A DNA stretch of 36,100 nt from a virus. The notes below the pieces were generated by a model. That model saw only the letters and a program-made list of their open reading frames with translations. It ran no database searches and was not told the origin of the DNA. Positions 5,734 to 29,375 of this stretch are shown here, piece by piece (the first letter of the stretch is position 1; the number at the start of each line of letters is the position of its first letter). The stretch lies in IMG/VR virus record IMGVR_UViG_3300035661_000182, positions 1-36,100 of that record. The stretch is one strand, 5' to 3'. Position numbers and translations under genes: made by a program.

Positions 5734-6429
5734 CTAGTACATGCCTATTTCTTTTTTAGTGGCGGCTACTTTGTTGGTCAACTTCATGACAAGATAATTG
5801 AGGCGACTTACATTTACCCCCAAGGCTTCTGCCAATTGAGTTGAATTCATAGTACCTCTATTATTCAGTATAAATTTTTCTTGGCTATCTAATTGAGAAA
5901 GTATATGGTCCAACAAGAACTTATTAGAATTAAACTGAGTTGCCTCAGTAGGCTTTAATGAGCCTGATTCCAGCAGGTCATCATACAGACCACCTTTAAA
6001 CTTAACCACCTGTGGCCTACTCCAGCCAATTTCATCGGCAATCTCATCATCTGTCGGATCACGATTTAGATTATCAGTCAAATGACTAACTACATTTCTA
6101 AACTCAGAGAATTGTCTATGTAGATTTTCTGGAAGCCTAACTGCATTTTGATACTTATAGTTAAGTCTACGAGTCTTGGCCAGGTAGTTTACAGTATGAG
6201 TAGACAATAAGGCCCCCTTGCTAGGGTCATACGTCTGTATGGCTTTAATGGCCCATTTCTTGGCCTCCCCAGAAAGAGCAGCTTCTGGTAAAGTACCAGA
6301 CTGTCTACGGACTTCCGAGTATATAATTGGATAAAGCTGCTTTACAAGTTTGCTGAGGTTAGGCTTGGATTTATCCTCAACCCATTTAAAGTAAAGCTCT
6401 TGGTCTAGATTTTTTACATCTTCTGTCAT
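5734..6429 (-). CDS. Sigma-70-family-like factor encoded in the baseplate operon
   Basis: Product of 231 residues with sigma-factor features in the usual order. Residues 55-90 contain 'AIQTYDPSKGALLSTHTV', the region 2.1-2.2 pattern ('YDPSKG.kFSTya'). Residues 97-104 'VRLPENLH' begin region 3, followed by 'NRDPTDDEIADEIGWS' (123-138), the classic R.PTdeEiA.e.g.s helix. Residues 178-220, with 'NSTQLAEALGVNVSRLNYL', look like a region 4 helix-turn-helix. It is shorter than housekeeping sigmas and lacks region 1.1. It would redirect host RNA polymerase, probably to late phage promoters. Its position between structural genes means it is made with the late proteins, which would give positive feedback on that operon. 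It could instead be a sigma-fold structural or regulatory protein. Confidence 0.7.
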   Translation of the reverse strand: MTEDVKNLDQELYFKWVEDKSKPNLSKLVKQLYPIIYSEVRRQSGTLPEAALSGEAKKWAIKAIQTYDPSKGALLSTHTVNYLAKTRRLNYKYQNAVRLPENLHRQFSEFRNVVSHLTDNLNRDPTDDEIADEIGWSRPQVVKFKGGLYDDLLESGSLKPTEATQFNSNKFLLDHILSQLDSQEKFILNNRGTMNSTQLAEALGVNVSRLNYLVMKLTNKVAATKKEIGMY

Positions 6430-16702: not shown

Positions 16703-16730
16703 TAGATATTTTTGAATTTCATGGTATAAG
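16703..16730 (+). promoter_or_regulatory. Promoter of the ubiquitin-like operon (extended -10)
   Basis: A -35-like TAGATA (16703-16708), a 16-base spacer and TATAAG (16725-16730) preceded by TGG, which gives an extended -10 (TGnTATAAG). The same 20-base spacing and 'GGTATAAGCA' core recur at 27381-27408. It reads into the ubiquitin-like gene about 65 bases downstream. The opposite strand must carry the terminase promoter in the same gap, but I see no strong candidate. Confidence 0.55.
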
Positions 16731-16794: not shown

Positions 16795-16992
16795 ATGGCA
16801 ACAACTACCGTAAACATTGCAACGACCGGCGAATCATATTCTCTTCCAGGTGATCACTATACTGTAGACGACATCGTCCGCAACCTGAAGGGTGGTGTGC
16901 CCGGCATGGCCTCTATGGATGCAAGTCAAGAGACTGACTCCGATGGTAATGTGGAATTCACCTTCCGCGCAAAAACGGGTACCAAAGGCTAA
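16795..16992 (+). CDS. Ubiquitin-like protein, PRTRC protein C / Prok_Ub type
   Basis: Product of 65 residues. It is the length of a beta-grasp ubiquitin-like protein and ends in 'KTGTKG', an exposed C-terminal Gly as in PRTRC protein C relatives whose tails read '..GTKG'. The body ('VNIATTGESYSLPGDHYTVD', 'VEFTFRAK') matches the pattern of a short beta-grasp with a central helix 'DDIVRNLKGG'. An AGGAA ribosome site precedes the ATG. The gene opens an operon with E2-, JAB- and E1-like genes, so it is presumably the modifier that the E1 adenylates at Gly65. An intrinsic terminator follows it at once, which suggests it is made in excess over the enzymes. Confidence 0.7.
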   Translation: MATTTVNIATTGESYSLPGDHYTVDDIVRNLKGGVPGMASMDASQETDSDGNVEFTFRAKTGTKG

Positions 16993-17014
16993 AAAAAACT
17001 TTTTTAGTTTAAGG

Positions 17015-17047
17015 ACATTGACCTCTGGCCAGGTCAATGTTTTTTTT
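17015..17047 (+). terminator. Intrinsic terminator after the ubiquitin-like gene
   Basis: Perfect 10-base stem ACATTGACCT/AGGTCAATGT (17015-17024 with 17031-17040), 6-base loop, then seven T. Because the next genes of the operon lie just behind with no promoter I can see, it probably acts as a partial terminator (attenuator) that raises modifier output relative to the enzymes. A second AT-only palindrome (A6-AC-T6) lies at 16990-17007. Confidence 0.8.
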
Positions 17048-17067
17048 AGTTTTCCAGGGGTTAAGAA

Positions 17068-17688
17068 TTGATATACGAAACAATACCACTTAAAAGAAAA
17101 CGGGCAGTAGATGTCCTTTCAAGTAGATTACAATCAGCACTTATATCGGAGTCTCTTGTTAAATTTACCTTTAGTAGACTACTGGAATTAAAGGCTGTGA
17201 CTAGAAACTTTAAATCCTTCTATGGGTTCTCGGCAGACCAAAGGTATACATTATCGGGGTGGAGTGATCCATTTTATTCCCTACTTAAAATAGCTGGGTC
17301 ACAGGCCTTAAAGTCGTACCAAGGGGCTTTTACTTATATACCTTTCCCACATAGGCCTAATGTAATTATTTCTCCTCCTAATATTAATCGGGGAGTACCA
17401 CTAAAGATACAGTTTTTAGGTAGAATGTCGCCCAAAGGATCTGAGACTATGGTTAGGTATCTTGCTAAGTTGGTAAAAGCATCTACTACTTTGGGGATAA
17501 CGCTAACAGCAAGTATTGTAAATGCCGAGTATGTTAATACTCAGAGTATATCAGTACTGATGAAACCATTAAACCCTAACCGTTCATTCACCCCATATAG
17601 ATATGTGTGGTATTTTCCAGAGGTTATAAAAGCTATGCAAAATATCCTAAGAATTAGAATGCGTTATAACCCGGTAGATACACAATGA
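17068..17688 (+). CDS. Unknown protein of the ubiquitin-like operon (206 aa)
   Basis: Product of 206 residues. The start is a TTG at 17068 preceded by AGGGG at good spacing; no ATG alternative near the 5' end is better placed. The family is not recognised. It is basic, with one possible beta core ('IPFPHRPNVIISPP', 'PLKIQFLGRMSPKG') and C-terminal helices ('YFPEVIKAMQNILRIRM'). No Cys is present, which argues against an E2- or E3-type thioester role. The gene sits between the modifier and E2-like genes and overlaps the next gene by 4 bases, so it likely belongs to the system, for instance as a substrate, adaptor or phage morphogenesis partner. Confidence 0.6.
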   Translation: MIYETIPLKRKRAVDVLSSRLQSALISESLVKFTFSRLLELKAVTRNFKSFYGFSADQRYTLSGWSDPFYSLLKIAGSQALKSYQGAFTYIPFPHRPNVIISPPNINRGVPLKIQFLGRMSPKGSETMVRYLAKLVKASTTLGITLTASIVNAEYVNTQSISVLMKPLNPNRSFTPYRYVWYFPEVIKAMQNILRIRMRYNPVDTQ

Positions 17689-17909
17689 ATATAGGTAACC
17701 TAAAGAAGGGATTTGTTGATTCAGAAGATCTATACTCTAAAGGTCTGGCCTTGATGGAAAACTTATCACAAACGATAACCTCCCTTGAAATACTAAATCA
17801 ACTAATAGACTTTGAAATTGGGGATTTTACAATAGGTAGAAGTAATCTAGGCGTTATTAATAACCGCCTAAAAATGGTTAACATCTTCATAGAAGGGGAT
17901 TTTGTATGA
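17685..17909 (+). CDS. Small unknown protein of the ubiquitin-like operon (74 aa)
   Basis: Product of 74 residues, ATGA overlap with both neighbours. It is helical and slightly acidic ('EDLYSKGLALMENLSQTIT'), with no Cys. Not recognised. Coupled translation with the E2-like gene suggests a partner of that protein or of the 206-residue protein. Confidence 0.55.
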   Translation: MNIGNLKKGFVDSEDLYSKGLALMENLSQTITSLEILNQLIDFEIGDFTIGRSNLGVINNRLKMVNIFIEGDFV

Positions 17910-18673
17910 CTGAAGAAAATATTAGCGAGCCATATATAAATATAAAAATGTATACAGATTGTGTCGAAGTGGACACCGGTAATAGTCTCAGTACCAGTAG
18001 CAAGATAATTTCTATTAATGACTTTTTAAAAACAGTATCTAAGGAAGTAGCTCAACCAAATTCTGAAGAAGCTTTTAGTCTACCACCAAACTGTATACGA
18101 TTTTCCAGGACAACTCAAGGTATAAAATTAAGTACCTACTTCCCTGCAAAAAAACAAGACCTTAAATACAAAAAGAGCTACGACCCCGAGACCATTTATA
18201 AAGTTGCGGCTCCAAACATTATATTATCCTTTACCTTAGATATTAAACCAGATAACTCATATTACCTAAAGGATATCAGATATTTTTGTACTGATCTTGG
18301 AGCCGAGTCAGTAGAGCTGCTAGAACAAGTACCTACAGAAAAAGATCATCTAAAACATATTTGGATACTCCCATTTTCTAATATATATAATGATGGTCAT
18401 ATGTGCTACGGAGGCAATACTACTCCTAGAGTATTTTCCAAAAACTTAAAAGGTCTTCACTATTATTACACCATGTTGTTTGATACTCCCTTCAACGATG
18501 ACCTATCCATTAATGATACTACCTTCAGAGGCAATGTTTCCTCCTGGTATAAAATCCTAGAAGATGCCGAAACCTTTCCGTACTATATGCTACGGGATAG
18601 TCCACATCTAGCTCCAACTCCTGTGGCGAATGACCTGAGTGAAATATTGCCAACTTTACACCAATTAGCATGA
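17906..18673 (+). CDS. E2-like conjugating protein, PRTRC protein B / Prok-E2_D type
   Basis: Product of 255 residues. Residues 155-170 'LPFSNIYNDGHMCYGG' match the signature of PRTRC protein B ('..P..N.y.dG..CwG'), the family that Pfam places as a prokaryotic E2 group. Cys167 is the candidate thioester residue and His165 and Asn159 flank it. The N-terminal half is beta-rich. A helical segment 'LKGLHYYYTMLFDTPFNDD' follows the active site. It would accept the modifier from the E1-like protein and pass it to a target. It overlaps the upstream gene by 4 bases and is followed 13 bases later by the JAB gene. The assignment rests on the motif and the operon context. Confidence 0.75.
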   Translation: MTEENISEPYINIKMYTDCVEVDTGNSLSTSSKIISINDFLKTVSKEVAQPNSEEAFSLPPNCIRFSRTTQGIKLSTYFPAKKQDLKYKKSYDPETIYKVAAPNIILSFTLDIKPDNSYYLKDIRYFCTDLGAESVELLEQVPTEKDHLKHIWILPFSNIYNDGHMCYGGNTTPRVFSKNLKGLHYYYTMLFDTPFNDDLSINDTTFRGNVSSWYKILEDAETFPYYMLRDSPHLAPTPVANDLSEILPTLHQLA

Positions 18674-18686
18674 CGAGGACTTAAAA

Positions 18687-19682
18687 ATGAAAATTCTTGT
18701 ACCATATGTCTCCTGTGTTTGTTCAGAAGATGAATTCAAAGATGTAGTCGGATCCTATTCAACCATCTATGTAACGACTTCTGATGGGTTTCTAAAACAT
18801 CAAAACCTGGTAGGTGGTCGTAGTGTCCGCCTGAAAATCCCAAGCCTACCGGCAGAAGCAGTTGGTGACGGAGACAAATTAAAAGAGGAACTGAACTTCT
18901 TACCAGATGGCAAAATCCCAAAGTCTATTCTCCATCAAATCACCAAGTTTTTTAAAGAAGTAATTACTCATAAGAAGGCTGAATATGAAGCCCACTGTTT
19001 TGTCTTATGGACAAAAGAAAAGGGGTATCATGTCTCGGTCCCGAAACAGACGGTATCAAAGGCGGCAGTATCTTTTTCGTATGATGCAAGCACTCTACCA
19101 TCAGGCAGTATTATTGTCTTAGACATGCACTCCCATAATACAATGAGTAGCTTCTTTAGTGGTACAGACAATAATAATGATAAAGGCTGTATCTATTATT
19201 CAGGAGTAATTGGTAATCTGGACAAGGAGCCTACCATGGTGTTCCGGTTCAACTTCCGTGAACTTAACTATCCAGTACAAGTTGATGAGATCTTTGAGAT
19301 ACCCTCTTTGGACATAGTACAAATCGATCCTACCTGGCTAGATCAAATTTCTGTTCCGGAGCCACATAATTATCCCCCCAAATACGGACAGATCACTCCT
19401 TTTTATGACCAGGAAAGCTCTAAGCTGTATGGCTTTCAAGAGGATGATTATATTATCCCTCCCGTAGATTTTGATAATGGTGGTAGACGTAGACGACTGG
19501 AAGACATTGATCCCGTAGGACTAGGGGATGATGACTATGAATATATAATCGGAGATGCCCTTGATTTTGTAATGGACAATCATCACAATGATGAAAATCT
19601 AAAACTTATTATTAATGAAGCCTATCAGAATCTGACAGAAAATGGCAGAAGACACTATGCGACCAACGGATTTATAGGATAA
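18687..19682 (+). CDS. JAB/JAMM metallopeptidase, PRTRC protein A-like
   Basis: Product of 331 residues. His148-Ser-His150, seven residues, Ser158, two residues and Asp161 give an exact JAMM motif H-x-H-x7-S-x2-D, preceded by a beta-hairpin 'GSIIVLDMHSH'. The upstream Glu that polarises water is probably Glu99 or Glu101 in 'KKAEYEAHCF'. In this family the enzyme removes or trims ubiquitin-like modifiers by cleaving isopeptide or C-terminal bonds. The C-terminal 120 residues form an acidic extension with a short basic run ('GGRRRRLE'), perhaps for binding partners. It lies between E2- and E1-like genes. A start with AGGAC-type site at 18675 fits the ATG at 18687. Confidence 0.85.
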   Translation: MKILVPYVSCVCSEDEFKDVVGSYSTIYVTTSDGFLKHQNLVGGRSVRLKIPSLPAEAVGDGDKLKEELNFLPDGKIPKSILHQITKFFKEVITHKKAEYEAHCFVLWTKEKGYHVSVPKQTVSKAAVSFSYDASTLPSGSIIVLDMHSHNTMSSFFSGTDNNNDKGCIYYSGVIGNLDKEPTMVFRFNFRELNYPVQVDEIFEIPSLDIVQIDPTWLDQISVPEPHNYPPKYGQITPFYDQESSKLYGFQEDDYIIPPVDFDNGGRRRRLEDIDPVGLGDDDYEYIIGDALDFVMDNHHNDENLKLIINEAYQNLTENGRRHYATNGFIG

Positions 19683-19689
19683 ATAAGAA

Positions 19690-20577
19690 ATGATATATAA
19701 CACTTCAAGCCTATTTCCTAACAAAGTATACATACATGGATGTGGTGGAACTGGTTCTAGACTGGTTCCATTGGTGGCTCAGTTTCTTAAAAGTCTGCCA
19801 CATGTAATTAATCCGGAGATTGTCCTTTTTGATTTTGACACTGTAGAGGCTAAAAATTTAAGTAGACAAAATTTTGTGACTTCTGACGTCGGTAAATATA
19901 AGTCAGAGGTATTAGCTGCTCGGTATGCCAAAGCCTATGATATTAATATTAAGGCAGAGACTACCTCAATTACAGATTCACAGTCTAATACTATGGAGTA
20001 TGGTGAAGTAGCATTACACATACTATGTGTAGACTCGGTATCCTCTAGGAAAGATATTCAGGCATGGATTTCCGCCAATTCAGTGGTAGGCATAATCATA
20101 GATACTGGTAATGGAGATAATTATGGCCAGGTAAAAGTAATGGGGACTAGTAGTCCAAGTGCATGTCAAGCCTCTGGAGAAATCTTGGAAAAACTTATAA
20201 GTAATAAGAGTGTCCCCTTTAGTGTTAGAGTACCTTCTCTGTATATGGATGTAGACTATTTTAATCAGATGGTTGAGACTACTTCTACGGCCAGCTGCGC
20301 TGACCTGGATCAGACTATGGCTATTAATGTTTTGGTTGCGGCCACGGCTTTTTCTGTGGTACAAAATATCTACTATGCCAAAGATATTGATTACCACAGA
20401 ATTGACATCGGGTTAGACTCTGGGTGTATTTATAGGCATACAGATTTTAAATACTTGAGAGAATTAGTAAGTCAAGACTCCTGGCAGAGCGGTTATACCC
20501 TTCCCGGATCAAATATTGATACTCTGATGAAAATAGCTTCTATAGAATTTGATAAGGCTATTTTGTTGGCGGCCTAA
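19690..20577 (+). CDS. E1-like ThiF-family adenylating enzyme (PRTRC ThiF)
   Basis: Product of 295 residues. The Rossmann P-loop 'GCGGTGSR' (residues 17-24), the acid loop 'FDFDTVEAKNLSRQNF' (47-62, with Asp48, Asn56, Arg59 and Gln60 in the ATP site) and Lys69/Lys71 match the E1/ThiF/MoeB adenylation fold. Cys203 in 'SCADLDQT' is the candidate thioester residue and is followed by a helix ('MAINVLVA') as in PRTRC ThiF proteins. It would adenylate the Gly-terminated modifier encoded at 16795-16992. There is no separate FAD- or rhodanese-type domain. It is the last gene of the operon and a terminator follows 12 bases downstream. Confidence 0.85.
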   Translation: MIYNTSSLFPNKVYIHGCGGTGSRLVPLVAQFLKSLPHVINPEIVLFDFDTVEAKNLSRQNFVTSDVGKYKSEVLAARYAKAYDINIKAETTSITDSQSNTMEYGEVALHILCVDSVSSRKDIQAWISANSVVGIIIDTGNGDNYGQVKVMGTSSPSACQASGEILEKLISNKSVPFSVRVPSLYMDVDYFNQMVETTSTASCADLDQTMAINVLVAATAFSVVQNIYYAKDIDYHRIDIGLDSGCIYRHTDFKYLRELVSQDSWQSGYTLPGSNIDTLMKIASIEFDKAILLAA

Positions 20578-20589
20578 GAAAAAATCCCT

Positions 20590-20619
20590 AATCCCGGAAA
20601 ATACTTTCGGGATTTTTTT
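20590..20619. terminator. Terminator between converging operons
   Basis: Stem AATCCCG/CGGGATT (20590-20596 with 20608-20614) followed by a T run on the plus strand. On the other strand an A-tract lies at 20577-20584, so it may work in both directions. It separates the ubiquitin-like operon from the minus-strand operon that ends at 20618. Confidence 0.7.
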
Positions 20620-27380: not shown

Positions 27381-27408
27381 TAGACATTTCAAGTTTTTTT
27401 GGTATAAG
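27381..27408 (+). promoter_or_regulatory. Promoter of the exonuclease/RT operon (extended -10)
   Basis: -35-like TAGACA (27381-27386), 16-base spacer, TATAAG (27403-27408) preceded by TGG-like TTGG. It matches the promoter at 16703-16730 over the -35, spacing, and 'GGTATAAGCA..TTT.GAGGA' core. Transcription would begin about 27415, 58 bases before the first gene. Confidence 0.6.
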
Positions 27409-28150: not shown

Positions 28151-28555
28151 ATGACGGTTGAAACGGCCATCCATCCGAAAGGATATAAAGGTCAAAGCCC
28201 AGATCTTGTATACAAAAAGAATACTTTCGCCATTTTTAATCAGCAGGATGAGGCCTGGGATTATTTCCGAGTAGTTATAGGGGTAGAGTCTAGATTATTT
28301 GTTCATTTAGATATGACCCCCTCTGTTCTTAAAAATGGTTTTTTATCTTATAACAAAAAACTATACCCAGCCTCTGGATTACAATTACTTAAAAGGAAAG
28401 TTTATGTCGGATCAAATGCAGTTACCTCCACCCCCGTTCGTGCGACCAGAGACAAACCTGGAATTATCTCAGATATTGGAAGTGGGGAATGCTCGGAGGC
28501 TGACTTGGCTTGGTCTGAACAAATTAGAACATTACAGCTTCTTTCGGATTCCTAA
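28151..28555 (+). CDS. Unknown protein overlapping the reverse transcriptase start
   Basis: ATG at 28151 with GAGG upstream; 134 residues. The first 85 residues look like a normal small domain ('NTFAIFNQQDEAWDYFRVVI', 'RLFVHLDMTPS'). The last 50 codons (from 28404) overlap the start of the reverse transcriptase in another frame and look less protein-like ('RATRDKPGIISDIGSGECSE'). I do not recognise it. It may be an accessory to the RT, or its tail may be fortuitous because no stop occurs sooner. Confidence 0.5.
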   Translation: MTVETAIHPKGYKGQSPDLVYKKNTFAIFNQQDEAWDYFRVVIGVESRLFVHLDMTPSVLKNGFLSYNKKLYPASGLQLLKRKVYVGSNAVTSTPVRATRDKPGIISDIGSGECSEADLAWSEQIRTLQLLSDS

Positions 28556-29375
28556 AAGATCTGGAGGCTTTAGGAATATCTACAATCCTTCTGGGCAAAT
28601 GAGATTAGTTCAATATAGACTACTTAGCAGAGTCTTGAGTACTTATGATATACCTGGATATATTCATGCTTTTGAAAAGGCCAGATCTATACCTAAGATG
28701 GCTCAGAGTCATGTGGGCAAAAGCGTAGTAGTAAGCGTCGATCTTAATGACTTCTTTACCAGTATACATCAAGACCATTTGATGAAAATCTTTACTGATG
28801 ATGGATTTGGTCCTAAACCAGCAAGACTGATTTCTGAACTTTGTACTTATAAATTCTTTGTCCCACAAGGAGCCATTACAAGCCCTAAGATTAGTAACCT
28901 GGTAATAGCTAAGACTTTTGGCCCCATCTTAGAATCGTACTGTAGAGAAAGAGATCTTACCTTGACGATCTATGCCGATGACATTACTATTTCCTCCACT
29001 GGGAGAATGGAAATAGGCGAGGTCTTGGCTTTTATTAAACAGACCTTGACCACTTTTGGCTTTAAGATTAATAATGCCAAAACCAAGGTTATGACCAAAA
29101 AGAATCGACACTATGTATGTGGGGTAGTAGTAAATCAGAAAACTAATCTGATCAGACATGAGCGTAAAAAGCTTCGGGCCATGGTTCACAACGTAAGTCT
29201 TTATGGACTTGAACCTGAGGCGGTCAAGAATAGTATGACCTCTGGAGAGTTTAAAAACTACCTAACGGGAAGGTTGGGGTGGTTTAACCAATTGAATCCG
29301 CAGGGAGCAGAGCCCTTATTTGATAAGTTGAAGGACGCACTTAACCCAGAAATAGTAGAGTTACCAGAGTTTTAA
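28404..29375 (+). CDS. Retron-type reverse transcriptase
   Basis: 323 residues from the ATG at 28404, which has AAAGG at good spacing; an in-frame earlier start at 28335 lies inside the upstream gene and is unlikely. Motifs in order: 'YSFFRIPKRSGGFRNI' (44-59), 'SVDLNDFFTSI' (111-121, Asp113), 'CTYKFFVPQGAITSPKISN' (147-165), 'YADDITIS' (190-197, catalytic Asp pair), 'FGFKINNAKTKV' (218-229), and 'HYVCGVVVN' (236-244), which is the retron 'VTG' motif with Cys replacing Thr. The 'PQGAITSP' segment excludes the DGR type (G..xSQ). It probably copies a structured RNA. I could not identify an msr-msd region. A promoter-driven operon with an exonuclease precedes it. Confidence 0.85.
   Translation: MSDQMQLPPPPFVRPETNLELSQILEVGNARRLTWLGLNKLEHYSFFRIPKRSGGFRNIYNPSGQMRLVQYRLLSRVLSTYDIPGYIHAFEKARSIPKMAQSHVGKSVVVSVDLNDFFTSIHQDHLMKIFTDDGFGPKPARLISELCTYKFFVPQGAITSPKISNLVIAKTFGPILESYCRERDLTLTIYADDITISSTGRMEIGEVLAFIKQTLTTFGFKINNAKTKVMTKKNRHYVCGVVVNQKTNLIRHERKKLRAMVHNVSLYGLEPEAVKNSMTSGEFKNYLTGRLGWFNQLNPQGAEPLFDKLKDALNPEIVELPEF

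Follow-up and report, generated by a model that had tools for sequence, protein, structure and literature searches.

The window analysed here, a 36,100-base IMG/VR virus record (IMGVR_UViG_3300035661_000182), contains an operon that encodes a ubiquitin-like protein (Ubl) together with E1-like, E2-like and JAB proteins. Protein tagging of this sort is familiar above all from the cells of animals and plants. We will argue that the phage encodes, with a probability of about 75%, a complete cascade for Ubl conjugation. It would be a ParB-less variant of the PRTRC type, fixed and old in a clade of large, apparently virulent phages. An earlier note on this DNA had proposed the operon; at the level of sequence the finding is confirmed, and it goes further than first stated, in that the operon appears to be a core pathway of these phages. 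The target of the modification is the weakest step of the scheme, and virion or host proteins both fit.

The earlier note placed genes for Ubl, E2-like, JAB and E1-like proteins on one strand, and all four open reading frames (ORFs) are found at those places, from 16795 to 20577 (Table 1). Its description of a complete four-gene operon falls short in that two genes and an internal hairpin had been omitted: there are six genes on the plus strand, in the order Ubl, ORF2, ORF3, E2-like, JAB and E1-like, flanked by a divergent terminase gene on one side and by convergent minus-strand genes on the other. Two more contigs, of 138,036 and 41,256 bases, carry the operon with 100% identical DNA. The motifs first pointed out are also present, namely the C-terminal Gly of the Ubl, the GCGGTGS loop and Cys203 (codon 20296–20298) of E1, Cys167 (codon 18404–18406) of E2, and the H-x-H-x7-S-x2-D motif of JAB (H148-S-H150-x7-S158-x2-D161). 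In hidden Markov model (HMM) searches, which had been proposed as a check, the three enzymes score above the Pfam cut-offs (E1 58.1 vs 28.1 bits with ThiF, JAB 32.8 vs 25 bits with Prok-JAB, E2 27.5 vs 25 bits with Prok-E2_D), while the window Ubl obtains no Pfam match. The best or sole NCBIfam matches are PRTRC_ThiF for E1 (85.3 bits, cut-off 144.75), PRTRC_A for JAB (68.7, cut-off 101.8) and PRTRC_B for E2 (20, cut-off 131.45), every one under its cut-off. The nearest solved relatives of E1 include MccB, ThiF and Uba4, and also ubiquitin E1; for E2 a single match by sequence to a solved structure was obtained, at E 0.99, and was taken as chance. Chance or misread ORFs are ruled out by the HMM matches and by the conservation described below.

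Relatives were collected by tblastn with E1, which gives 10 phage records, and by IMG/VR scans with E1 and JAB alignments, from which the best 80 of 142 and the best 80 of 90 relatives, respectively, were kept. With repeat contigs removed by a hand list, the scans, the phage records and the window provide 129 loci with E1, which form 101 clusters at 90% identity. In 25 clusters the terminase gene lies on the opposite strand upstream of Ubl, and these, together with Salmonella phage Arash, Vibrio phage D69 and the loci L031 and L039, make up the clade of 29 discussed here. Cys203 of E1 is Cys in all 101 clusters, and Cys167 is kept in all 90 in which E2 is detected (25/25 clade members counted). 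JAB is detected in 98 clusters, with H148 in 98, H150 in 96, and S158 and D161 in 95, the remainder being alignment gaps. It should be kept in mind that the scan patterns, N-[LIV]-x-RQ-[NM]-F for E1 and HSH for JAB, partly select for the residues they contain; Cys203 and Cys167 are outside them. The loss of Cys167, Cys203 and the terminal Gly of the Ubl in homologues had been named beforehand as evidence against the proposal; the cysteines are kept throughout, and so is the C-terminal motif of the clade Ubls.

This motif, G-x-K-G with T, N or A at the second position, is found in 29/29 clade Ubls, in 23 of them at the chain end and in 6 followed by a tail of 1 to 23 residues. Beyond the clade, the HMM finds a Ubl in 31 of 72 clusters, and exceptions to the motif there are TTKG in L087 and a candidate in phage ME3 that ends in DGNKAA and is missed by the HMM. 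A second Ubl elsewhere, for instance fused to a target, was not found, the Ubl matches being confined to the operon locus in 15/15 records. As judged by profile comparison, the Ubl is homologous to PRTRC_C-type Ubls: hhalign of 26 clade-type Ubls against 6 PRTRC_C-type ones (a mixed set of 3 plasmid and 3 phage sequences) gives 96.9% and E 1.4e-10 over 68 columns, end to end, compared to at most 1.34% for 30 column-shuffled alignments. In single-sequence searches TIGR03738 is matched by 4 of the 26 Ubls (best E 0.0012), the window Ubl not being among them, and against PHROG the window Ubl has an insignificant match only, to a tail family (E 0.026). The AlphaFold2 model shows the E-E-H-E-E arrangement of a beta-grasp (pLDDT 88.4, pTM 0.70), the fold whose absence would have spoken against a Ubl, with fold matches that are weak.

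The same gene order is present in Arash (180,819 bases) and D69, while for D181 and D148 the proteins match in tblastn. The Arash and D69 records both begin with the terminase. The Arash operon closes its record, on the strand opposite to the terminase, and joining the ends gives the layout of the window; in D69 ca 8.6 kb with other genes lie between Ubl and the record end. In a quick E1 tree of 105 rows the 29 clade members form one group (98% support in the Shimodaira–Hasegawa-like approximate likelihood ratio test, SH-aLRT), apart from 4 plasmid PRTRC sequences, near which a separate group, the L007-type phages, is placed. The trees of E1 and of the terminase large subunit (TerL) for 26 phages agree in outline, and the agreement is partial: the Mantel r is 0.836, with 0 of 5000 permutations as high, 12 of 23 splits are shared, and the window pairs with L015 in both.

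A survey of related phages had also been suggested. The converse scan, with the terminase alone and no selection for the operon, gives 56 loci, some of them on contigs that are near-copies. Wherever the contig extends for 6.7 kb or more on the side of the operon, which is the case for 38 of them, the operon is present (38/38). In 36 of these Ubl, E2, JAB and E1 are on the divergent strand with Ubl within 4.2 kb of the terminase; the other two (L212 and L227) share their contigs with L031 and L039 and have the operon at a distance of ca 9 and 14 kb. Among the 18 loci with shorter flank, 9 show a fitting part of the operon, and nothing of it is seen in the remaining 9, whose flank does not exceed 895 bases. 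The first reading, in which the operon was described as inserted, is not borne out, given that all clade members sampled with sufficient flank have the operon and that the trees agree in outline; from these comparisons the operon is a fixed and old part of the phage clade, largely inherited with the terminase and with no recent insertion. That such a PRTRC-type operon occurs in a phage without ParB holds up, as ParB_N (PF02195) is found in 0 of 18 clade records other than Arash and D69, some of which may be fragments (control rings in 10 of 14 genomes). A terminase pattern scan of genome_contigs for prophage relatives matched 103 stretches, none of them confirmed, which by itself does not prove a lytic life style; the Arash authors report that genes for lysogeny are apparently absent (PMC10585845). 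The clade apparently consists of large, virulent phages.

We now turn to the tandem Ubl genes. In 8 of the 29 clade members two to five Ubls are consecutive in one reading frame (three in D69, five in L039, and two each in L016, L032, L036, L042, L048 and L053). The repeats of L032, L036 and L048 are identical over the last 55 residues and have silent differences at 27, 26 and 20 of these 55 codons, and the best pairs of identical repeats outside the clade have 31 (L008) and 36 (L134). Since identical protein goes together with many silent codon differences, each repeat is seemingly selected as a finished protein, which suggests that each is kept as a finished Ubl that is cut after the Gly. 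Diverged repeats are found in L005, L039, L042 and L152. Bacterial operons of type 6e are known to have genes with several Ubls, according to the available text of PMC11354881, and tandem Ubls as such are therefore not new; in the accessible part of the literature searched, no report of them in PRTRC-type operons or in phages was found. Other phages outside the clade have up to six Ubls in frame (L134), and four- to six-fold precursors are seen there at L008:2661–3422, L134:1722–2840 and L152:5685–6491, for example in Bacillus phage KLEB27-3.

The operon also carries recurrent candidate expression signals. All 29 clade members (29/29) have, downstream of the Ubl stop and ahead of ORF2, a hairpin followed by a T-run, with a folding free energy (dG) of −9 or lower. 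At the same threshold hairpins are found at 24 of 421 places chosen at random in these loci (often intragenic), in 7 of 29 cases on the reverse strand, in 9 of 58 after E2 or JAB, and in 3 of 31 other phages; with a threshold of −6 the numbers are 29/29 vs 57/580 letter shuffles. Upstream, TGNTATAAN, which resembles an extended −10 promoter, occurs within 250 nt 5' of Ubl in 27 of the 29 members, compared to 109 of 2900 shuffled upstream regions. A generic two-hexamer scan of this region of the window does not list the site before Ubl, and gives 7 promoter-like sites vs 13.2 in shuffles. In Arash, TGNTATAAT is present at two places only, one preceding Ubl and the other a series of small genes with no assignment. 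The promoter-like motif hints at early or middle expression of the operon, which would argue mildly against a purely structural role.

Gene content and order, kept residues, tandem precursors, the hairpin and the outline co-inheritance with the terminase are read from the sequences, and from them we infer every enzymatic step and the read-through of the hairpin in the following scheme. Most transcripts would end at the hairpin after the Ubl gene, giving Ubl in excess, and read-through would supply the enzymes. Tandem precursors and Ubls with a tail would be cut by JAB after G-x-K-G. E1 would then adenylate the terminal Gly and take the Ubl onto Cys203, from which E2 would accept it onto Cys167 and hand it to amines of target proteins. 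JAB could also remove the Ubl from targets.

Evidence that bears on the target is available for Arash, where 116 proteins were listed by liquid chromatography–mass spectrometry (LC-MS) of gradient-purified particles (PMC10585845). The 15 coverages compared between Gp216 and Gp238 agree with the identically numbered GenBank proteins, while those of Gp244, Gp247, Gp248 and Gp251 fit only the GenBank protein numbered one lower; another four, at 100%, are uninformative. A one-number shift between the list and GenBank is assumed here because the percentages of Gp244, Gp247, Gp248 and Gp251 fit the length of protein N−1 and not of N. With the shift, Gp247 is E1 (3 unique peptides, 430 spectra), Gp248 is JAB (2, 369), Gp249 is E2 (5, 95) and Gp251 is ORF2 (2, 379); without it, Gp246 to Gp248 are E1, JAB and E2. 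The three enzymes are thus on the virion list under either numbering, and ORF2 only with the shift. The peptide and spectrum counts of the list are oddly matched, and GenBank calls E1 and E2 of Arash structural, but not JAB. For some of the listed enzymes carry-over is likely, because DNA primase and similar enzymes are also on the list. The Ubl of the Arash record OQ632216.1 (L004:107–307, 66 residues, ending in RTGTKG) is missing from the deposited proteome because gp251c (L004:102–320) is annotated in the wrong frame, being read in a different frame over the Ubl DNA. A search database built on that annotation, if such was used, would have left the Ubl unfindable.

That the phage's own virion or assembly proteins are the target has, in our estimate, slightly less than even odds, and host proteins are a credible, somewhat less probable target. 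We hold it rather unlikely that the phage lineage depends on its own Ubl conjugation as a central part of the life cycle, in the full sense of a polyubiquitin-like precursor cut by JAB, bulk tagging of virion proteins and enzymes inside the particle. The strongest competitor is a cascade that mainly modifies host proteins early, for takeover or counter-defence, the virion enzymes then being carry-over, which the Arash authors name as possible in the accessible text (PMC10585845), or being delivered with the DNA. An operon opposed to its neighbours and preceded by an extended −10-like site in nearly all clade members would suit this explanation, as would the second Arash site, since small unassigned genes are of a kind often expressed early. 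It sits less easily with an operon that is present in every sampled clade member despite the hosts being Salmonella for Arash and, by name, Vibrio for D69, and the promoter class is a short motif for which the generic scan finds fewer sites than the shuffles; overall we consider the explanation tentative. Sulfur-carrier pathways need no E2-like protein, whereas the operon has a separate one with an invariant Cys, and tandem modifier copies suit bulk tagging better. A ThiS/MoaD-like sulfur carrier that serves tRNA thiolation or a cofactor, E1 acting as an adenylyltransferase and JAB as a processing peptidase, is therefore improbable, although E1 belongs to the ThiF superfamily with the solved relatives given above, and the Ubl model has a structural match (Z 5.6) to molybdopterin synthase chain 1nvi_D, which we take to be MoaD. 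A plasmid PRTRC cassette recently picked up by one phage as cargo, for which the core gene order of the plasmid locus and the position of the L007-type phages could be cited, is rejected for the window clade on the basis of the separate E1 group, the partial E1–TerL agreement, the operon on all contigs with enough flank and the lack of ParB.

It is important to point out that, besides the sulfur-carrier possibility, a number of results weigh against the conjugation cascade that we favour. For the window Ubl by itself neither Pfam nor NCBIfam gives a match at E up to 1, the best Foldseek match of its model, ubiquitin, is not significant (E 0.064), and the best VIA match is protein G B1, a weak one (Z 6.1, rmsd 2.1, 52 aligned). 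The conserved downstream His of this E2 type, at the position that we take the available text of Iyer et al. 2006 to mean, is Asp in 25/25 clade members in our own alignment; the other 65 sequences have Asp (49), His (9) or other residues (7). None of the proteins of the operon was recognised as E3-like. Between the E1 and TerL trees 11 of 23 splits differ, some of them on long branches. Finally, the evidence for the hairpin is its recurrence across the clade, because in the window alone neither its fold (z −1.66 vs dinucleotide shuffles) nor the number of terminator-like sites (4 vs a shuffle mean of 3.1) is exceptional.

Table 1. Features of the operon and of its terminase neighbour in the window.
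Feature	Position	Strand	Remarks
Terminase large subunit, divergent neighbour, marker of the phage clade	15064..16689	−	PHROG 675, E 3.7e-55
Extended −10 promoter-like site TGGTATAAG	16722..16730	+	73 nt 5' of Ubl start
Ubl, 65 aa, ends TGTKG	16795..16992	+	ORF, beta-grasp model, profile match
Intrinsic-terminator-like hairpin and T-run, between Ubl and enzyme genes	17011..17044	+	
ORF2, 206 aa, fast-evolving, between Ubl and E2	17068..17688	+	No assigned family or fold
ORF3, 74 aa, small ORF	17685..17909	+	ORF list
E2-like protein, 255 aa	17906..18673	+	Prok-E2_D, Cys167
JAB metallo(iso)peptidase, 331 aa	18687..19682	+	Prok-JAB, nearest NCBIfam PRTRC_A
E1-like adenylating enzyme, 295 aa	19690..20577	+	ThiF, nearest NCBIfam PRTRC_ThiF, Cys203
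Terminator-like hairpin closing the operon	20590..20614	+	Faces convergent gene at 20618

Of the two genes added to the operon here, ORF2 has weak family matches only (best E 0.094, DUF2827), none significant in Pfam, NCBIfam or PHROG, and no credible fold match (Foldseek best E 0.17, VIA Z under 4) for a model with a pLDDT of only 70.7. Short ORFs at the place of ORF3, weakly alike, are present in Arash and D69. On the right-hand side a DNA-repair operon had been described; ligase-like and helicase genes are indeed there, but the first four minus-strand genes have no PHROG match, and PAAR and PhoH genes are also present. At the corresponding place in Arash, the convergent genes include some labelled structural, this being a statement about labels and not about homology to the window genes. 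On the terminase side the window has a sigma-factor-like gene (5734–6429), as does Arash (gp10, on its virion list). A further TGGTATAAG is found at 27400, 204 nt 5' of several plus-strand genes in a row, one of which is polymerase-like (28335–29375).

Some peculiarities of the enzyme genes should also be mentioned. In D69 (L005:9998) the E1 frame has no ATG, GTG or TTG near its start, and the best-fitting start is an ATT after an AGGAG site; the annotated coding sequence begins 225 bases later and lacks the nucleotide-binding loop. Some JAB genes among the surveyed loci are split, being in two pieces around an insert at L021:7490–9929, L023:8249–9931 and L009:2733–5843, and in Acinetobacter phage ME3 the insert holds a tRNA-Met and small ORFs; these inserts are possibly introns or homing elements. 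In some phages E1 may have sizeable additional domains, since its frame is 1053 residues long between stops in L112 (8141–11299) and 831 in L130 (11635–14127).

The first description of this operon type dates from 2006 (PMC1779556), and in the accessible part of the literature examined no function is assigned to them. That literature, which consists mostly of papers open without subscription and so does not establish absence in print, contains no report of phage-encoded Ubl conjugation of this kind, and the available text of a jumbo-phage review (PMC7824862) makes no mention of Ubl, JAB, ThiF, E2-like or PRTRC proteins. Since the cascade is present in every sampled member of the clade, including a cultured phage of Salmonella Typhimurium (Arash) and Vibrio phage D69, the question of the tagged target is now testable. 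The Ubl ends in Lys-Gly, and after digestion with trypsin the modified lysine of the target would thus retain one Gly (+57.0215 Da, C2H3NO). This remnant has the composition of carbamidomethylation by iodoacetamide, and we suspect that adducts could escape routine virion proteomics. The bacterial Bil system tags a phage tail fibre as a defence, and a phage that runs its own tagging reaction would reverse that picture. If virion proteins are what is tagged, the phages would possess a viral, prokaryotic pathway of ubiquitin type that serves to build or arm the particle, and not for defence.

We finally compare the operon with known systems. In type II CBASS (cyclic oligonucleotide-based anti-phage signalling system), Cap2 is an E1–E2 fusion, whereas the phage E1 and E2 are separate genes; parts of the PADLOC E1–E2 models are matched by the phage E1, and not by E2. 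Eukaryotic polyubiquitin genes have silent codon differences between identical repeats, and some have a short tail. Bub is presumably a poly-Ubl operon of type 6e. Such operons likewise have several Ubl domains in one frame (PMC11354881, available text), but as described in the accessible parts of PMC1779556 and PMC11354881 their E2-like domain is inactive and JAB is mostly fused to E1, whereas the phage proteins are separate and E2 has its Cys. The polyubiquitin repeats are also arranged head to tail (PMC11354881, same text); they are of another sequence family, and this is a resemblance and not membership. The comparison with lambda tail assembly made in the earlier note has shared features behind it: in the available text of PMC1779556, the Lambda/T1 tail proteins I and K are also phage-encoded and comprise a Ubl with a conserved Gly and a JAB. 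It is an analogy only, since no E1 or E2 is named there, JAB occurs together with NlpC/P60 and the Ubl with a further domain.

BilABCD, the bacterial ISG15-like anti-phage system, likewise has Ubl, E1, E2 and JAB in one operon (PMC11354881, available text), and attaches its Ubl to the central tail fibre of a phage (as cited in the accessible part of PMC11364771); it is a bacterial defence and not phage-encoded. Five of the operon proteins were run against PADLOC, where only E1 matches a Bil model, and weakly (BilD, 20.4 bits, residues 41–147), while Ubl, ORF2, E2 and JAB have no match at E up to 1; a defence-system reading was rejected on this ground. The closest resemblance is to PRTRC of plasmids, type 6d of Iyer et al. 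2006 in our reading of the available text (PMC1779556), which has the same order of Ubl (C), E2 (B), JAB (A) and E1 (ThiF). The likeness extends to the profile homology of the Ubl, its C-terminal -KG and an extra variable gene between Ubl and E2. The plasmid order Ubl, variable gene, E2, JAB, E1 is fully seen in a Methylomonas plasmid only, where a small gene precedes ThiF; in Deinococcus and P. putida only part of the locus carries labels, and the Stanieria locus shows ThiF alone. The middle gene of the phage operon is not recognisably homologous to the plasmid one (hhalign probability 0.1%, with only 4 sequences, 3 plasmid and 1 phage, on the other side). The phage operon further differs in the terminator-like hairpin after Ubl, the tandem Ubl precursors and the terminase neighbour, as well as in its scores below the PRTRC cut-offs, in that no ParB was found, and in the E2 Asp in place of His. 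Because of the last three features, we regard it as a phage variant of PRTRC and not as a member.

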